Source of the DNA: Aminiphilus circumscriptus DSM 16581
GTDB lineage: Bacteria > Synergistota > Synergistia > Synergistales > Aminiphilaceae
Reading direction: 5' to 3'
Length of the DNA stretch: 64,000 nt
Assembly: GCF_000526375.1 (NCBI RefSeq)
Contig: NZ_JAFY01000007.1
Location: 744,001 to 808,000 of the forward strand
Shown here: positions 10,441-18,674 of the stretch, piece by piece
Layout of the letters: every line of letters starts with the position of its first letter
Position numbering within the stretch: the stretch's first letter is position 1
Notes under the pieces: model-generated
Seen by the model: only the letters and a program-made list of their open reading frames with translations
Told to the model about the DNA's origin: nothing
Database searches by the model: none
Program-made: the position numbers and the translations under genes

Positions 10441-12420
10441 ATGACCTTCAGAAAGATGCTCCGAGGAATAGTCTTGTTCATGATCCCCCTCCTGGCGATA
10501 CTTACGGCGGAAGAAGTTCTTCCCTTGCCGGTTTTGGCCTCTCCGCCCGCTTTTGACGCGGGAATACCCACACTTCCGATCACTTTGGTGAAGCCAGGCA
10601 TGAAAGGGATCGCACGTACGGTTCTCCAGGGAAGGGAGATCGTCTCGTTTCCCCTGGAGATCCTGAGTGTGATCGAACGAAAGGGAACCCCGCGACATCT
10701 CATTCTCGTTCGAGCATCAGGCCCTTTGATGGAAAGAACGGGAGGCATCGCCGCAGGCATGAGCGGGAGCCCCGTTTTCGTGGAGGGGAAACTCGTCGGT
10801 GCCATTGGATATGGCTGGGATTTCAGCGATCATCGAATTGGTCTTGTTACACCGATCGAAGACATGGCTTCCGTGTGGGACTGGCCGGAGCGTCTTCCGC
10901 CTTTTTCTCGACCGTTACCGCAAGGGCTTACTCTTTTTACCTCCGAAGACAAAGTACCCGAGGAAAACGCCTCGCCGAATCCGGGGGAAAAAGAACCTGA
11001 CGAAAATGAAAACAATAACGACGTGGACTCGATGGAGGAGGAAAACTCGGATCGGCAAGACACATCTCTTTCATTCCCCTTTGGCGCGAAAGATCCCATT
11101 CTTCTGGAAGTGACGCGTGAGGAGACCAACGTAAACGTAAACAGGATACTCCGCGAACGCGCCGCACCTCTTCTTGTCGATGGGCTCAGCCCGAGGGCGG
11201 CCAAATCTTTGGAGACGGATTTAGGCACCAGGATTCTCGCCATGGGCACGGGAAGCGGCGGAAGTGACCTTCCCGTAGAGTACGATGCACACATGACCCC
11301 TGGAGATGCCATCGGCGTTCTGCTCGCTTGGGGAGACATTACCATCGGCGCCACCGGCACCCTTACGGCGGTGGGGAAAGATGGACGCTTTCTTGGCTTC
11401 GCCCATCCTTTCCTGAACCGGGGAGCCGTTGTCTTTCCAGTGACAAAAGCCTGGGTCCACGATGTCATTCCCAGCCTGGAGTCTCCCTTCAAACTAGGCT
11501 CGCCCCAGGCAATCGTAGGAACTGTTACCCAGGATCGCCCACAGGCCATCGGTGGACGTATCGGATATTTCGCTCCTTCCGTGTCGTTCACGGTGACCGT
11601 CCGGAACCAGGAGACGAAGAAAAGTGTCATCAAAAGATTCCACGTGGTGGACGATCCTTTTCTCGTGGCAAAAATCGCTCCTGCGGCAATGCTCGGCATT
11701 GTGGACGACGAATGGGGCAGGGTAGGGCAGGGAACAGCCCATGTGACCGTTTCGATCTCCGGAGGCGGGCTCGAAAAGGGGTGGACGCGAGCGAACATGT
11801 TCTTCTCTCCCGAGGATCTCGCTAGGGATACCATAAAGGAATTCTCCGATCTGGTGGATATTTTTTCCACGAATGAATTCCTGGAGGTAAAGCCCCTGGG
11901 ATTTCGGATCGACGTGGAATTAACGCAGGCTCCTCGCGTGCTTTTCATTGAGGATGTGGAGATCGACCCGAAAGAAGCCGCCCCCGGAAGCGACGTGACC
12001 ATAACCGTGAAATTACGTCCCTACCGAAGGAACCCACTGACGAAGACGTTTACCCTGAGGGTGCCCGAAGGCGCCCAGGGGACATGTGACGTTCTCGTCC
12101 GGGGTGGGGGCATCGCAGAACCCGAACAAGAGTCCATCCTGCAAGGATGGAGGTCCATCGCTGCCTTCGAAGAGCTGCTCAGCGAACTGAACGCGAAGGA
12201 ATCGAACAACGAACTCGTAGTGGAACTCCTCGCCAAGGTCGAGGAGCCTTCTCAGGACAAGATGGAAGAGGAGGAACCAAAACTTCTCAGTGAAATCAAG
12301 GCACGAAGGATGAAGGAAGGAACATTGCGTCTCTTCAAGTCGAATTATTATGTAGAAGGGCTCATGCGACGCGTTCTTCACGTGAGGCCCGAAAACGGCG
12401 CGACCGATTCCGGTCAGTAG
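10441..12420 (+). CDS. Exported SpoIVB-type (S55) serine peptidase domain protein
   Basis: A 659-aa protein with a signal peptide (hydrophobic residues 9-21, probable cut after VLA near residue 33). Residues about 45-142 carry the S55 core: GIARTVLQGREI, then GGIAAGMSGSPVF at about 101-113, where S108 aligns with the catalytic Ser of SpoIVB, and LVGAIGYGW. A Glu/Asp-rich linker (about 175-205) separates this from a second conserved region with GDITIGATGTLTAVG and FLGFAHPF, and a C-terminal beta-rich part. SpoIVB normally signals during sporulation; this gene sits upstream of an Mla lipid-transport operon, so an envelope role is more likely here. The substrate is unknown. The SD AAAGGAG precedes ATG 10441. 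Confidence 0.8.
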   Translation: MTFRKMLRGIVLFMIPLLAILTAEEVLPLPVLASPPAFDAGIPTLPITLVKPGMKGIARTVLQGREIVSFPLEILSVIERKGTPRHLILVRASGPLMERTGGIAAGMSGSPVFVEGKLVGAIGYGWDFSDHRIGLVTPIEDMASVWDWPERLPPFSRPLPQGLTLFTSEDKVPEENASPNPGEKEPDENENNNDVDSMEEENSDRQDTSLSFPFGAKDPILLEVTREETNVNVNRILRERAAPLLVDGLSPRAAKSLETDLGTRILAMGTGSGGSDLPVEYDAHMTPGDAIGVLLAWGDITIGATGTLTAVGKDGRFLGFAHPFLNRGAVVFPVTKAWVHDVIPSLESPFKLGSPQAIVGTVTQDRPQAIGGRIGYFAPSVSFTVTVRNQETKKSVIKRFHVVDDPFLVAKIAPAAMLGIVDDEWGRVGQGTAHVTVSISGGGLEKGWTRANMFFSPEDLARDTIKEFSDLVDIFSTNEFLEVKPLGFRIDVELTQAPRVLFIEDVEIDPKEAAPGSDVTITVKLRPYRRNPLTKTFTLRVPEGAQGTCDVLVRGGGIAEPEQESILQGWRSIAAFEELLSELNAKESNNELVVELLAKVEEPSQDKMEEEEPKLLSEIKARRMKEGTLRLFKSNYYVEGLMRRVLHVRPENGATDSGQ

Positions 12421-12445: not shown

Positions 12446-13231
12446 ATGTCATTCTTCGCCTGGATTGGAAGATGGCTTCTTCGGTTTTGGGGGGATTTGG
12501 GCGCCTTCGCTCTTTACGGCTGCCGTATGGCCTGTGGGATTTTTGGAGGTCGTTGGGGAAGAAGAGAATTCTTCGAACAGCTCGATCGCATCGGTGTGGG
12601 GTCTCTTTCCATGGTGGCCGTGACGAGCGCCTTCTCTGGAATGGTCATGGCCGTACAGACCCTTGACCAGTTCGTTCGTTTCGGGGCAACGCAATATATC
12701 GGGGGCGTCATTGCCATCACCATGGTGCGGGAAATGTCTCCGGTCCTTACGGGTCTTGTCGTCGCAGGACGCGTCGGCGCCGCAATGGCCGCCGAGATCG
12801 GTTCCATGAAAGTGACGGAACAGCTGGATGCCCTTCGGGGATTCGGGCTCGATGATGTGTCCTTTGTCGGATCGCCGCGTCTTCTCGCCAGTTGTATCAT
12901 GTTACCGGTGCTCACCGTTTTCTCCTTCGCCATCAGCATCCTTGGCGCCTATTTGTACGTGAGCACTCATGGTGTCAGCGCATTTGTGTTCCGCCGTTCC
13001 GTTGCAGTCATGCTCGAACCGCTCGATCTTTACGGTGGCGTGACGAAGGGGTTCGTCTTCGGCCTTCTCATTGCCGTCTCCTCCTGCTCCGAAGGTTTCC
13101 GTGCGGAGACAGGGGCTCGAGGTGTTGGAATCGCCACGACGAGTGCCGTCATTTGGAGCAACATGCTCATCCTCGCCTTCAACTATTTTCTATCCACGCT
13201 CTTCTTCGGTGGAATGCCCCGGGGAGGGTGA
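12446..13231 (+). CDS. mlaE: MlaE family lipid ABC transporter permease
   Basis: Inner-membrane permease of the MCE-type phospholipid transport system between inner and outer membranes. The 261-aa protein has several transmembrane helices and the MlaE hallmarks FGATQYIGGVIAITMVREMSPVLTGL-like segment and VAGRVGAAMAAEIGSM-VTEQLDAL (coupling region). The gene order mlaE-mlaF-mlaD is the standard core. It starts 25 nt after the S55 gene and is likely co-transcribed. Confidence 0.93.
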   Translation: MSFFAWIGRWLLRFWGDLGAFALYGCRMACGIFGGRWGRREFFEQLDRIGVGSLSMVAVTSAFSGMVMAVQTLDQFVRFGATQYIGGVIAITMVREMSPVLTGLVVAGRVGAAMAAEIGSMKVTEQLDALRGFGLDDVSFVGSPRLLASCIMLPVLTVFSFAISILGAYLYVSTHGVSAFVFRRSVAVMLEPLDLYGGVTKGFVFGLLIAVSSCSEGFRAETGARGVGIATTSAVIWSNMLILAFNYFLSTLFFGGMPRGG

Positions 13232-13235
13232 GACC

Positions 13236-14015
13236 ATGAAACACCTTGTCCAGTTGCAGGACGTAACCATGTCTTTCGGGACCAAGCGTGTTCTCTCGGG
13301 GGTAAACATGTCCATCGCGCCCGGAGGCATCACAGCTCTCATGGGCGCCTCCGGATGCGGAAAAACGACCGTTCTCCGTCTGATTGCGGGACTCCTCGGC
13401 ATTCAAGGCGGCACCCTCTTTCTTTTCGGGACGCAGCTTGATATCGAGACCAATCCGGACGTAATCGTCGCACTCCGCAAGCGTATGGGTATCGTTTTCC
13501 AGAGCAGCGCACTTTTCGATTCTCTCACCGTTGGAGAAAACGTGCGCTTCCCTCTGAAGTTCTGCCTCGGCATTACCGATGAAAGCGAACTTGGCGCCCG
13601 GGTCGAACGTATGCTTTCCCAAGTCGAACTGGAGGGAATCGAGAAACTGTATCCCTCCGAACTTTCCGGGGGAATGCGCCGACGGGTTGCCATCGCCAGA
13701 TCACTCGTCTATGATCCTGAATTGCTCCTCCTTGACGAACCGACCACAGGGCTCGACCCGATGACGGCACGACACATCGACCGCCTGGTGGCCAGTCTCG
13801 GTCGGAGGTCCGGAGCAGGCGTTCTCCTGGTCACCCACGACCTCGTCTCAGCTCTCGGTGTGGCCGACACGATACTGCTCATGGAAGAGGGACAAATCGC
13901 CTGGAGTGGCACGCCAGAGGAATGGCATGCCACCGATGATGTCTGTGTCAGATTCTTCTCCAAGGGAATGATTCCTGTCACAAAGGGGGGAGAAGAACCA
14001 TGGAACGGGAACTGA
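13236..14015 (+). CDS. mlaF: MlaF family lipid ABC transporter ATP-binding protein
   Basis: Cytoplasmic ATPase that powers MlaE. The 259-aa protein contains Walker A GASGCGKTT, the signature LSGGMRRRVAIARSL, Walker B LLLLDEPTTGLD and the H-loop VTHD. The frame is open back to 13071 inside mlaE, but ATG 13236 has a strong SD (GGGGAGGGTGAG) and matches the family N-terminus. It overlaps mlaD by 16 nt. Confidence 0.95.
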   Translation: MKHLVQLQDVTMSFGTKRVLSGVNMSIAPGGITALMGASGCGKTTVLRLIAGLLGIQGGTLFLFGTQLDIETNPDVIVALRKRMGIVFQSSALFDSLTVGENVRFPLKFCLGITDESELGARVERMLSQVELEGIEKLYPSELSGGMRRRVAIARSLVYDPELLLLDEPTTGLDPMTARHIDRLVASLGRRSGAGVLLVTHDLVSALGVADTILLMEEGQIAWSGTPEEWHATDDVCVRFFSKGMIPVTKGGEEPWNGN

Positions 14016-15361
14016 AGGCGGGACTCCTTGTCTTTTCCGCTCTTGTTCTTTTCGGTGCTCTGGTATTTGTCACGGGAGGCGCTTTGTTCGGACGAAAGGG
14101 GTATTCTTTCTCCGTGCTGTTTCCCGACGCAGGAGGACTCCAGGTGGGTGCTCCGGTTTTTGTCTCCGGTGTGGAACTCGGCCAGGTTCAGGCACTTCGC
14201 CTGACGCCGGAAGGCGTTTTCGTCGTCGTGTCGCTCCCTCCCGAAGTAGCCATTCCCGAGGACAGTGTCTTCTCCATAGGCAAGAGCGGATTGTTGGGAG
14301 ATGCGAGCATAAAGGTCGTACGCGGCGGAGCGGAGCGCATGGTCTCTTCGGATGAAACCGTCACAGGGCATCTTCCTCCGTCTTTCGAAGAGGCCCTTGA
14401 AGAAATCCGGGGAGATTTCCTCGAAGTACGACGGACTTTCGCGTACATCAACGACATCCTTGGGGATTCAGAGCGGCGAAGCGCCATGAAAGACATGCTG
14501 GACGCTCTTCCAGAACTTGTCGAGGAAGGAAGAACTACGTTCGGCACAATCGGCGACGCTGCACAAGACGCACGTCATTTCCTCTCCCGTGCCGAGGAAG
14601 AACTCCAGGACGTCTCGGGCAAACTCTCCGTCCTTCTGGAGAACGTGGACGCATCCGTACGTGAAAACAAGGACGTGTTTGCGGAGACACTCCGCCATAT
14701 TCGAAACGTGGCAACACAACTCGACGATGTCCTGAGAGATTTCAACGAAGACAGTCTTTCCGGAAAGGACCTCCGACGAGCCGTAACAAAGCTTGGGGAT
14801 GCCGCTTCCCAGGTGGAACAGCTCGCCCTGCGTGTGGAGGAGGAACTCTTCGCCTCCGAAGGAACAGCATCGCTTCCTGAAGTGGTGCGAGAGGTACGGC
14901 AAACCGTCTCAAGGGCACAGGACATCATCCATGAAGTAGAAAGTGTCCGTACCGAGGGGCAGGTCTCTCTGCACAGCGCTGTTTCGGGGAAAACCGATGC
15001 AGAGGAAAGCCTCCTTTTGGATGCCTCCATATGGATCGGAAAAAGGGATTTCCCGTACGGCATTCTCCTGGGTGTGGAAAACGTGGGCCTTCAGGATGGG
15101 CTGACCTTGGCTCCCACGTATGATCTTCCATGGGGACGCGTGTGGGCAGGAATCGTGAGAGGATACGTGGGATTGGGGTTTCTATGGCAGGGAAGCGGAA
15201 GCAGCCCCTTCTCCCTTCAGGGACAATGGTGGAACGAGGACGGCGGTTTTTGGGCCGCAGAAGGGCGGATTCGTGTGAACGAACGGTCCGGTTTTCTCTT
15301 CAAGCATGAAGAACAGAATCCGGAATCTCGTCAATCCGTGGGCGTTTACTACAGATTCTGA
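14000..15361 (+). CDS. mlaD: MlaD/MCE-domain protein with long helical region and C-terminal beta-rich domain ending in Phe
   Basis: The 453-aa protein is far longer than the roughly 180-aa proteobacterial MlaD. Residues 8-29 form a membrane anchor, residues about 34-112 the MCE domain (VLFPDAGGLQVGAPVFVSGV), and about 130-320 a helical region. The last 115 residues alternate polar and aromatic or hydrophobic residues in strand-like blocks (YGILLGVENV, VWAGIVRGYVGLGF, SLQGQWW) and end VGVYYRF. A terminal Phe is the usual outer-membrane beta-barrel signal. This layout matches the trans-envelope MlaD described in diderm Firmicutes, where the C-terminus sits in the outer membrane. Neither MlaC nor MlaA is nearby, which fits a direct bridge. 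The barrel is inference from pattern. Confidence 0.85.
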   Translation: MERELKAGLLVFSALVLFGALVFVTGGALFGRKGYSFSVLFPDAGGLQVGAPVFVSGVELGQVQALRLTPEGVFVVVSLPPEVAIPEDSVFSIGKSGLLGDASIKVVRGGAERMVSSDETVTGHLPPSFEEALEEIRGDFLEVRRTFAYINDILGDSERRSAMKDMLDALPELVEEGRTTFGTIGDAAQDARHFLSRAEEELQDVSGKLSVLLENVDASVRENKDVFAETLRHIRNVATQLDDVLRDFNEDSLSGKDLRRAVTKLGDAASQVEQLALRVEEELFASEGTASLPEVVREVRQTVSRAQDIIHEVESVRTEGQVSLHSAVSGKTDAEESLLLDASIWIGKRDFPYGILLGVENVGLQDGLTLAPTYDLPWGRVWAGIVRGYVGLGFLWQGSGSSPFSLQGQWWNEDGGFWAAEGRIRVNERSGFLFKHEEQNPESRQSVGVYYRF

Positions 15362-16002
15362 TGCAGTGTGGACAATTCATCACTTTTGAAGGTATCGATG
15401 GCTCCGGGAAGAGTACCCAGGCAAAACTTGCGGCGGAATTTTCCGCCCATGCCTTAGGGGAAAACCGTGTTCTCTGGACAAGAGAACCCGGCGACTGGAA
15501 AGGCGGAAAGCACATCCGGGAATTGCTCTTGCATGGAGATCTTCTTCACTGCCACGCAGAACTCTATCTTTTCCTTGCGGATCGTTGTGAACACGTCCGC
15601 CAGGTCATCGAACCCGCACTGGCCAGAGGTTGCCTGGTCCTTTGTGAACGCTATTGCGATTCCACACTGGCATATCAGTCGTGGGGAAGGAACCTCTCTC
15701 GCGCATGGATCGAAAGCCTATTTTCTACGAGCGGTTTTCCAACTCCAAATCTCACGTTGTGGATTGATGTTCCGGTGGAGAAAGCCTGGGAGAGACTGAC
15801 CGAACGCGGAAGTGCGGATCGTATAGAATCCGAAGCACTCACTTTTTTGCATTCCGTGCAGAAGGGATATGCGGCGCTTTCGGAGGAATATCCCCAACGG
15901 ATCGTTCGGATTGATGGCACACGTGCTCCGCATCTCGTCTTCGAGGACGTCCGCTCCTTGTTGAAGAAAACCCTGAAAGAAAGTTTCGGTATTGCGCTAT
16001 GA
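15361..16002 (+). CDS. tmk: Thymidylate kinase
   Basis: Phosphorylates dTMP to dTDP. The 213-aa protein has the P-loop GIDGSGKST, the DRCEHV segment and the substrate motif CERYCDSTLAYQSWGR. The start overlaps the mlaD stop by one base (TGATG). It begins a tmk-yaaR-holB-ricT block like that of Bacillus. Confidence 0.94.
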   Translation: MQCGQFITFEGIDGSGKSTQAKLAAEFSAHALGENRVLWTREPGDWKGGKHIRELLLHGDLLHCHAELYLFLADRCEHVRQVIEPALARGCLVLCERYCDSTLAYQSWGRNLSRAWIESLFSTSGFPTPNLTLWIDVPVEKAWERLTERGSADRIESEALTFLHSVQKGYAALSEEYPQRIVRIDGTRAPHLVFEDVRSLLKKTLKESFGIAL

Positions 16003-16451
16003 AAGTAGAAAAACCAAGGGAACAGAAATCGCGATCCGTATCGAAAAATACCGGACAATCCGTTTCTGGTGGGAGAGGACGCAGTGGAGCACAGCGTCTC
16101 GTGGAAGTTCCCAAGGAAACCTTCGACGAGTCGTTGCAATCTCTTGAAATCAGCGCCCTTCTCGAAGAGGTGGAAGCGGTGGGAAAACAATTGTTCCGCT
16201 ATCCCAGCCCACAACTGCTCGCCAGATACCGCCGTCTTGTAGGCGACCTGCTTTTCCGAGCCGAACAAGGACTGCAGATGAAAAAAGATTTTCGCTGGCG
16301 GCGAGCGAATAGAGCAACTTATGTCATCATTGAGAAAACGGAAAATATGTTGGATCAAATCGAGAAAGTCCTCGCCCAGGAGGGAGAACGAAGTAAACTC
16401 TTGGAACTTATGAACGAGGTGAAAGGGTGTCTCATATCACTGTTCATGTAG
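15999..16451 (+). CDS. YaaR family (DUF327) protein
   Basis: A 150-aa protein with a basic, Ser-rich N-terminal tail (about 35 residues) followed by a helical DUF327 core, including LARYRRLVGDLLFRAEQGL and a DQIEKVLAQEGERSKLLELMNEVKG C-terminus typical of the family. In B. subtilis yaaR lies between tmk and holB, exactly as here. The molecular role is unknown. Its ATG overlaps the tmk stop (ATGA). Confidence 0.8.
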   Translation: MKVEKPREQKSRSVSKNTGQSVSGGRGRSGAQRLVEVPKETFDESLQSLEISALLEEVEAVGKQLFRYPSPQLLARYRRLVGDLLFRAEQGLQMKKDFRWRRANRATYVIIEKTENMLDQIEKVLAQEGERSKLLELMNEVKGCLISLFM

Positions 16452-17203
16452 AGAATCAAAACGAAGAACATTCACTGGAGGAATTTTTTGCAATGACGTC
16501 TGGAGGATCCTTTCCCCAGGCGATGGTGGTGCGCACGTCCCGCTCTTCTTTCTTGCGGACCATGTCGATTCTCGCCCATCGCTACCTCTGTTTCCACGGA
16601 ACTGGGAATGACACGTGCGCGTCCTGCCGCAGTTGGAGCGACTCCTTTCATCCCGATCTTCTGATCGTTGGAACTCAAGACGCGGCGCCAGGCATCGAAG
16701 AATGTCGACATCTTGCCGCCGGGCTTTCATTAGCTCCGTTTTGCGCGCCTCGTCGACTCGGAGTCGTGTTGTGCGCCGACATCCTCTCACTTCCGGCTGC
16801 CAACAGCCTTTTGAAAATAGTGGAAGAACCGCCTCCCTCTGCGCATCTTCTCCTTTTTATCGAAACCAACCGACTTCTCCCCACTCTTCGCAGTCGAGTC
16901 TGGCAGCTTTCCGTTTCTTCGGAGGAACCATCACCCATACAAGCACCTCCGGAAGGGAAAGCGGAGTGGATACGGCGCATCAGCGAAAAACGGGGCACAA
17001 AAGCCGATGACATGACGGAAGAACTGCGCCAGTGGTGTTCCTATCTGATACGAAATGGGCATGGTCTTAAAGCACAGCGGTTGGAAACGCTCCGCAATTT
17101 TTCGGAGAAGAACCGCCTTGTTGTTTCCATGTTACAGGACCTTGCGTATTTGGCCCTTGAGGAGGAGTATCCCGTTGAATGCCTTTTTGACGATTTTTGG
17201 TAA
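16427..17203 (+). CDS. holB: DNA polymerase III delta' subunit, degenerate nucleotide site
   Basis: Clamp-loader subunit. The 258-aa protein has a CASCRSW segment from the zinc-binding module, HPDLLIVG, an APFCAPRRLGVVLCADILSLPAANSLLKIVEEPPPSAHLLLF block that is diagnostic for delta', and a short C-terminal domain. The P-loop region (VVRTSRSSFLRT) is not a working Walker A, as is common for delta'. Start GTG 16427 follows GAGGTGAAAG and overlaps yaaR by 25 nt. Confidence 0.87.
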   Translation: MSHITVHVENQNEEHSLEEFFAMTSGGSFPQAMVVRTSRSSFLRTMSILAHRYLCFHGTGNDTCASCRSWSDSFHPDLLIVGTQDAAPGIEECRHLAAGLSLAPFCAPRRLGVVLCADILSLPAANSLLKIVEEPPPSAHLLLFIETNRLLPTLRSRVWQLSVSSEEPSPIQAPPEGKAEWIRRISEKRGTKADDMTEELRQWCSYLIRNGHGLKAQRLETLRNFSEKNRLVVSMLQDLAYLALEEEYPVECLFDDFW

Positions 17204-18674
17204 ACCTCGCTATCTTGGCGTCGTTGATTTGCCCGAGAGTGCTGCACCTCTGAAAAATCGCTGGATCTTCGTCCAGACATCCCGAGGCGAAGAACTTGCC
17301 TTTGTCATTGGTCCCTTGACATCGGAGCAGATTGAGCGGTACCGGACACAGCGCAGAATCGAGGACAGGGAAAACGCCACTCCCCGCGGAAACGAACAGG
17401 GACTTGAGGAGATCACCTTTGTTGCCGATGCTACGGACACTGCTCTGGCGCTCCGAGAAGAACACCAGGCAGAAGAAACCCACGTTCTTGTCACAGCACG
17501 TCAACTCCTGCGCGAACACAATCTTTCCATGAAACTCGTCGACGTAGAATATTTGCTCGATAAGAAAAAGCTTTTTCTCTACTTCACTTCGGAGCAACGT
17601 GTCGATTTCCGTGCCTACGTGCGCGATTTGGCTAAGGAATTCAAGACACGCATCGAACTACGTCAAATCGGCGTCCGTGACGAGGCCAAGGTTCTGGGAG
17701 GCATTTCCCCCTGCGGGCTCCCTTGTTGCTGCAGTTCCTGGTTGAACGGTTTCTCGCCCATCTGTATCCGCATGGTGAAGGAACAGAATCTTGCCCTGAA
17801 TCCGACGAAGATTTCCGGGATCTGCGGACGCCTTATGTGCTGTATGGCCTATGAACACGCCACCTATCGAGAACTCTGGGAACATCTCCCCAATCCGGGG
17901 AGTAAAATTCGTGCGCCCCAAACAACCTACATCGTCACCGGTGTGGACATCAAAGCCAGAGCGGTCCGAATTTGTGGGCAGGGAATACGGGAATTCGAGG
18001 TCCCCGTGGACGATTTCCCGGCGTTCAAAGAATGCGTACTTCGAGGAAATGAGTGGATTACAGAGGACTCTCCCAGTCAGGAGGTGTCTCGCGTCCCACA
18101 CACCTTCCCTGAAAACGCCAAACATCAACGATTCACCAGAGCTTCCACTTCATCCACAGAAGAAAAGCCACACTCCGTCAAAGAACGGACATCTTCGGAA
18201 CGTGGGACGGCATCGCCTTCCCCCATGCCGGAAGAAAAAGAACCGAAGCGGGGAAAAACGTCTTTCTCTGGTGGCACAGAAAGTTCGGACAGTATTCCCG
18301 AGAAGCCGAAGAAAACTCGCCGTCGTCGAAAAAAGAACGCGAGTGCGAAACAGGAAGAGGGAAAAGAACGCGTGATCTCTCCGAGGACACAGCAGGAGGA
18401 GAAGTCTGCGCCTCTCGAGGAAAACAAGAACCCGGCCAGACCCACCGCAGGAAAACGGCATGCCGACTCCGTCGAACATTCATCGCGTACATCGCGGGAA
18501 GAACAGGCTTTGAAAAGAACTCCCCCCGATGGAGAGGGCGAACAAAAGCAAAAAACGAGGCGGAGACGACGTCCAAAACGTAAACCACAACAGATTGCTT
18601 CTTCGCCTTCGGAAGAAAACCGTTCCGCTGAAAAACCGAATCGCACGACCGTCGATGCAACATCCAAAGGGTGA
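17175..18674 (+). CDS. ricT: PSP1-domain protein RicT/YaaT with long basic C-terminal extension
   Basis: RicT family proteins carry Fe-S ligating cysteines and, in Bacillus, act with RicA and RicF on RNase Y and phosphorelay functions. The core has the expected Cys-rich motifs [11 protein letters not shown] and [16 protein letters not shown]. The start is taken as TTG 17175, 7 nt after GGAGGAG inside holB; the frame is open further upstream but without an SD. The product is 499 aa, about 200 longer than usual: after about residue 300 comes a low-complexity tail rich in Lys, Arg, Glu and Ser, with [10 protein letters not shown] and [11 protein letters not shown]. The tail looks disordered and could bind RNA or ribosomes (inference). 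Confidence 0.88.

Follow-up and report, generated by a model that had tools for sequence, protein, structure and literature searches.

A minimal mlaEFD locus in Aminiphilus circumscriptus, with a predicted Veillonella-type barrel on MlaD, and its uneven occurrence in Synergistota

The window of Aminiphilus circumscriptus DNA analysed here (the whole stretch of 64,000 nucleotides) contains a row of three genes, mlaE-mlaF-mlaD, which with a probability of about 0.8 encodes a minimal three-gene Mla transporter of the Veillonella parvula MlaD type in a Synergistota bacterium carrying lipopolysaccharide (LPS) genes. This transenvelope MlaEFD type was described by Grasekamp et al. (2023; PMC10665443). 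The genes and the predicted domains of MlaD are listed in Table 1. The mlaD gene, starting with ATG, is the last of the row, and the same row was found in six further Synergistota regions. The product of mlaF also matches the NCBIfam MlaF model NF008809, below its cut-off. The neighbours of the row are an S55 peptidase gene and tmk; no gene for MlaB (STAS) lies beside mlaDEF.

Table 1. Features of the mla region, with positions in the window
Feature	Position	Strand	Evidence
SpoIVB-like S55 peptidase gene, directly 5' of mlaE, conserved neighbour	10441..12420	+	PF05580 E=4.4e-10
mlaE, lipid ABC transporter permease	12446..13231	+	PF02405 E=4.4e-68; NCBIfam TIGR00056 over cut-off
mlaF, transporter ATPase	13236..14015	+	PF00005 E=6.4e-34; sits between mlaE and mlaD
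mlaD, elongated, 453 aa	14000..15361	+	PF02470 E=1.5e-15; related loci in 31 Synergistota genomes
MlaD inner-membrane anchor, residues 3-25	14006..14074	+	AlphaFold2 helix; hydrophobic in all aligned relatives
MlaD MCE domain, residues 33-107	14096..14320	+	PF02470; Foldseek to E. coli MlaD core 5uw8
MlaD helical stalk, residues 129-314	14384..14941	+	AlphaFold2 helices, low confidence
MlaD C-terminal ten-strand beta barrel (predicted), residues 316-453	14945..15358	+	AlphaFold2, Foldseek, homology to Negativicutes MlaD barrel
C-terminal outer-membrane insertion signal SVGVYYRF, putative	15335..15358	+	fits polar-x-G-x-x-aromatic-x-aromatic
tmk, thymidylate kinase, downstream boundary of mla genes	15361..16002	+	read from translation; synteny

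The mlaD product has an N-terminal anchor and a single MCE domain, as indicated by Pfam and AlphaFold2. Pfam finds PF02470 in one stretch (residues 33-107, E=1.5e-15), and the protein is the sole PF02470 match in the source genome (3.22 Mb, 99.9% complete), no second one being present. The NCBIfam model of the E. coli-type MlaD covers residues 4-121 only and scores below cut-off, as expected because this MlaD is long. PqiB and LetB of E. coli, likewise periplasm-spanning MCE proteins, carry several MCE domains per chain, whereas the window protein has one.

Full-length MlaD was modelled with AlphaFold2 from an alignment of 28 MlaD proteins. The model consists of a helix at residues 3-25, MCE strands at 35-124, helices at 129-314 and ten strands at 316-452. 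Together with the Pfam match it bears out the sequence-only reading of this DNA, which had described a membrane anchor, a single MCE domain, a helical stretch of about 190 residues and a beta-rich end terminating in Phe, and the C-terminal beta strands on which that proposal depended are predicted, ten in number. Two of its details have to be revised: the putative barrel, put at about 115 residues, comprises 138 (316-453) in the AlphaFold2 model, and oligomerisation, which had been thought necessary to build it, is not called for, as ten strands are present in one chain, the arrangement reported for V. parvula. Oligomerisation of MlaD is still to be expected, not on account of an incomplete barrel but because every characterised MCE protein is hexameric.

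Confidence differs along the model. The ten C-terminal strands have a pLDDT of about 92, mostly above 90, and prediction of the C-terminal domain alone again gave ten strands (mean pLDDT 91.7, pTM 0.82). The stalk helices at 129-314 have a pLDDT mostly below 50; the stalk of V. parvula MlaD is likewise of low predicted confidence (PMC10665443). Stalk length varies among relatives, about 27 residues (approximately 153-180 of the window MlaD) being missing in most members of family f10, and this variation may track the width of the periplasm.

Foldseek comparison of the full-length model placed the mycobacterial Mce1 chains 8fed and 8fef at the top and also recovered E. coli MlaD, whose core (5uw8) superimposes on the MCE domain with a TM-score of 0.85 by target length. 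The C-terminal domain matched OmpX best (E=4.4e-4), and next came Ail, designed membrane barrels and OmpA. Superposition on TMB10_163, a membrane barrel designed with ten strands, gave a TM-score of 0.53 at 4.6 A. Judging from these matches to closed barrels, the ten strands would close as well. No Pfam model covers the barrel domain with confidence, and a sequence search of the PDB with the barrel profile returned antibodies only, at E>0.05, which were taken as chance matches.

The consensus of the outer-membrane insertion signal is polar-x-Gly-x-x-aromatic-x-aromatic. The C terminus of MlaD, SVGVYYRF, fits it, and by script scoring 25 of 27 aligned tails fit, the source MlaD counted among them. 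This near-universal signal, together with OmpX, Ail, OmpA and designed membrane barrels being the best structural matches, makes it very improbable that the beta domain resides in the periplasm, outside the outer membrane. Such a location would accord with the lipocalins found among the weaker Foldseek matches, the outer-membrane placement of the barrel being itself a prediction. Hydrophobicity alternates along the barrel strands more strongly than in any of 5000 within-strand shuffles; the strands of the soluble MCE domain alternate to an equally high degree, so this property is not decisive for membrane insertion. The homologous barrel of V. parvula fractionates with the outer membrane, and the MCE part of that protein with the inner membrane (PMC10665443), which also argues against a periplasmic domain.

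Homology of the barrels was assessed with profiles. Relatives of the locus, among them Acetomicrobium, Thermovirga and Synergistota bacterium L-13, were collected by a pattern scan with an MlaE alignment; an MlaD alignment had been tried as the query and was too divergent. The scan also reached a Veillonellaceae genome in which mlaE-F-D is followed by a TolC-like gene, and the tails of 30 MlaD proteins from the class of this genome made up the Negativicutes barrel profile. Alignment of the Synergistota and Negativicutes MlaD tails with hhalign gave a probability of 98.1 and E=1.2e-13 over 134 columns. When whole genomes were searched with the Synergistota barrel profile, it found the Veillonellaceae MlaD tail (1.8e-9) and an Armatimonadota MlaD tail (3.3e-10), the latter forming the C terminus of an MlaD whose gene is preceded by an MlaF-like one; the remaining six genomes tried gave no match at E<=1. 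A Sericytochromatia MlaD tail reached 13.3 bits against the same profile, which is suggestive only.

Locus L133, encoding an MlaD of 419 residues followed by TolC- and TamB-like genes, agrees with the published description of V. parvula and is taken to be that species from protein length and gene order. Against the Synergistota profile its tail alone reached 16.3 bits, whereas no shuffled control exceeded 4.9 bits; in hhalign this tail gave E=1e-5 and a probability of 82. From the match of the Negativicutes profile and the recovery of the Veillonellaceae and Armatimonadota tails it follows that the barrels of Synergistota and Negativicutes MlaD are, on the evidence of their sequences, homologous. 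The barrel has been reported absent from the MlaD of the PVC group (PMC10665443). The present searches agree with that report, to which homology at the sequence level is an addition: a barrel inherited in common by several phyla now has support beyond similar predicted folds.

The V. parvula system is the closest of those compared. It shares the gene order mlaE-mlaF-mlaD, an MlaD composed of an anchor, one MCE domain, long helices and a ten-strand barrel ending in Phe (PMC10665443), the homology of this barrel, and the lack of MlaA and MlaC. The suggested match to the one-piece bridge of Veillonella is thus upheld by the domains, the ten predicted strands, the barrel homology and the absence of MlaA and MlaC. 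The stalk is about 150 residues long in V. parvula and about 190 here, and tolC and tamB lie downstream there, whereas here the S55 peptidase gene is upstream and tmk downstream. E. coli MlaABCDEF is alike in the fold of the MCE domain and in its MlaE and MlaF relatives; its MlaD, however, is short (183 aa), without stalk or barrel, and works with MlaA, MlaB and MlaC, of which MlaA and MlaC were undetected here. Mycobacterium Mce1A-F proteins also combine one MCE domain with long helices, but form a heterohexamer of six proteins, each giving one strand to a six-strand barrel (PMC10665443), instead of a full barrel per chain.

By analogy with the experiments on V. parvula, from which outer-membrane insertion, the hexamer, the tunnel, the substrate and the direction are carried over, the transporter may operate as follows. 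Six copies of MlaD would be seated on the inner-membrane ABC transporter MlaE-MlaF through their MCE domains and N-terminal helices, with the long helices building a tunnel or groove that crosses the periplasm. In the outer membrane, every C-terminal domain would by itself become a ten-strand barrel. Driven by the ATP that MlaF uses, misplaced phospholipids would be returned from the outer membrane to the inner one, with neither MlaA nor MlaC taking part.

It counts against this picture, for the source MlaD and V. parvula alike, that a phospholipid would not fit through the narrow barrel predicted for V. parvula and that six complete barrels per complex are without known precedent (PMC10665443). 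The same narrowness, and the lack of a barrel in most long MlaD proteins (PMC10665443), would suit a barrel serving as a mere outer-membrane anchor or spacer, with a separate outer-membrane protein passing lipid to the stalk. This arrangement is a real though less probable possibility: in the six further Synergistota regions with Mla, as judged by homology to the window's row, mlaEFD has no gene for an outer-membrane protein at its side, and the barrel is present in all 31 Synergistota genomes with MlaD.

Movement of phospholipid outwards, or of another hydrophobic substrate, is unlikely, although the direction of Mla transport is disputed and a related mycobacterial MCE system has been described as a cholesterol transporter (PMC10665443). 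In V. parvula, mla mutants show lipid-asymmetry phenotypes that are suppressed by tamB mutations, which points to opposite directions for the two systems (PMC10665443), and the source genome also encodes two large AsmA/TamB-like proteins, one matching TamB (E=2.1e-14) and the other weakly DUF748/YhdP. LpxC is encoded as well, and in its neighbourhood lie genes for LpxI, LpxB and a BamA-type Omp85 protein that carries POTRA domains. The genome thus holds genes for an LPS outer membrane, for machinery that inserts barrels and for candidate carriers of lipid in the outward direction.

Occurrence of the system was surveyed in 188 Synergistota genomes, 116 of them of good quality. MlaA (PF04333) and MlaC (PF05494) were detected in none of the 188, the source genome included, with searches that were positive in the E. 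coli and Caulobacter controls. The six-component Mla of E. coli, defined by MlaA and MlaC, is consequently not what the source genome encodes; the earlier observation that no mlaA, mlaB or mlaC gene adjoins mlaD holds at the locus, and a complete MlaABC set elsewhere in the genome, which would have spoken against a one-piece bridge, was not found, MlaA and MlaC being undetected. The searches for MlaD, for MlaE and with the barrel profile picked out one and the same set of 31 genomes, and no stand-alone barrel without MlaD was found among the 188. In two of the 31 the barrel match falls, in part or in full, on a short contig piece of its own, as expected of a split gene. Genome G022 was rejected as a carrier of MlaD: its match is confined to residues 168-269 (E=3.4e-4) and is regarded as a chance match of helical repeats, neither PF02470 nor the barrel profile detecting anything there.

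LpxC was found in 167 of the 188 genomes. Among those of good quality, 111 of 116 have LpxC and 21 have Mla, and in at least 90 LpxC is present with MlaD and MlaE undetected. Many Synergistota relatives are thus without the system, in contrast to the class of the Veillonellaceae locus, where an MlaD match was obtained in 119 of 120 sampled genomes. Whole families of Synergistota have LpxC and no detectable MlaD or MlaE, so mlaEFD is dispensable. Some phyla are known to have LPS but no Mla (PMC10665443); a split within one phylum with a visible gap was not found in the main text of that paper.

The gap can be read from the gene order. In Mla-positive genomes belonging to the main taxonomic order of the phylum the row is prfB - S55 peptidase - mlaE - mlaF - mlaD - tmk - (yaaR) - holB - PSP1 - ftsY. 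In four genomes of family f5 (G025, G029, G031 and G085) and one of f7 (G121) the S55 gene is followed directly by tmk and the row continues, and in three f6 genomes a peptidase-like open reading frame on the opposite strand stands alone between the two. Among the genomes read, the five of f8 and one of f6 have the row broken after the S55 gene. For the regions read, the direct junctions and the opposite-strand frame of f6 led to rejection of the idea that another gene systematically takes the place of mlaEFD. In the distant family f11 the S55 gene adjoins mlaEFD too, and therefore presence of mlaEFD is likely ancestral in Synergistota and its absence a loss. The tree of the S55 protein, whose backbone lacks resolution, is consistent with one or two losses: its best topology calls for two changes or more, a single change being possible.

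It appears rather probable, then, that the MlaD barrel is a single inherited domain common to Synergistota, Negativicutes and Armatimonadota, and that Synergistota cleanly lost mlaEFD once or a few times while keeping the LPS genes, leaving natural pairs with and without retrograde transport. Related families that keep LpxC but differ in mlaEFD make the phylum suited to asking whether an LPS outer membrane depends on retrograde phospholipid transport, and what takes its place; this phylum-wide comparison set is of more interest than the mlaD gene itself. Judged from a ranked list, no paper in the library searched combines Synergistetes, the outer membrane, MlaD and the Mla system, and the stem 'Synergist' is absent from the main text of PMC10665443. 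The present locus extends the Veillonella-type lipid bridge to a phylum not named in that main text.

Several further observations concern the genes and genomes compared. Of 26 Synergistota genomes searched, 25 had the S55 peptidase gene, which adjoins mlaE in every Mla-positive region read; it is kept where Mla is lost, and it is a SpoIVB-like gene in a diderm phylum. The row tmk - yaaR-like - holB - PSP1, at window positions 15361-18674, is kept in many of the Synergistota regions read and resembles the gene order of Firmicutes. JAGGWM010000122.1, deposited as a Thermococcus MAG contig, carries a Synergistota-type mlaE (61% identical), probably because the bin is contaminating or wrongly labelled. 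In Acetomicrobium sp. UBA3949 two separate contigs each hold an mlaE locus, and two MlaD proteins occur in genome G012; this looks like a bin in which two species are mixed rather than a duplication.
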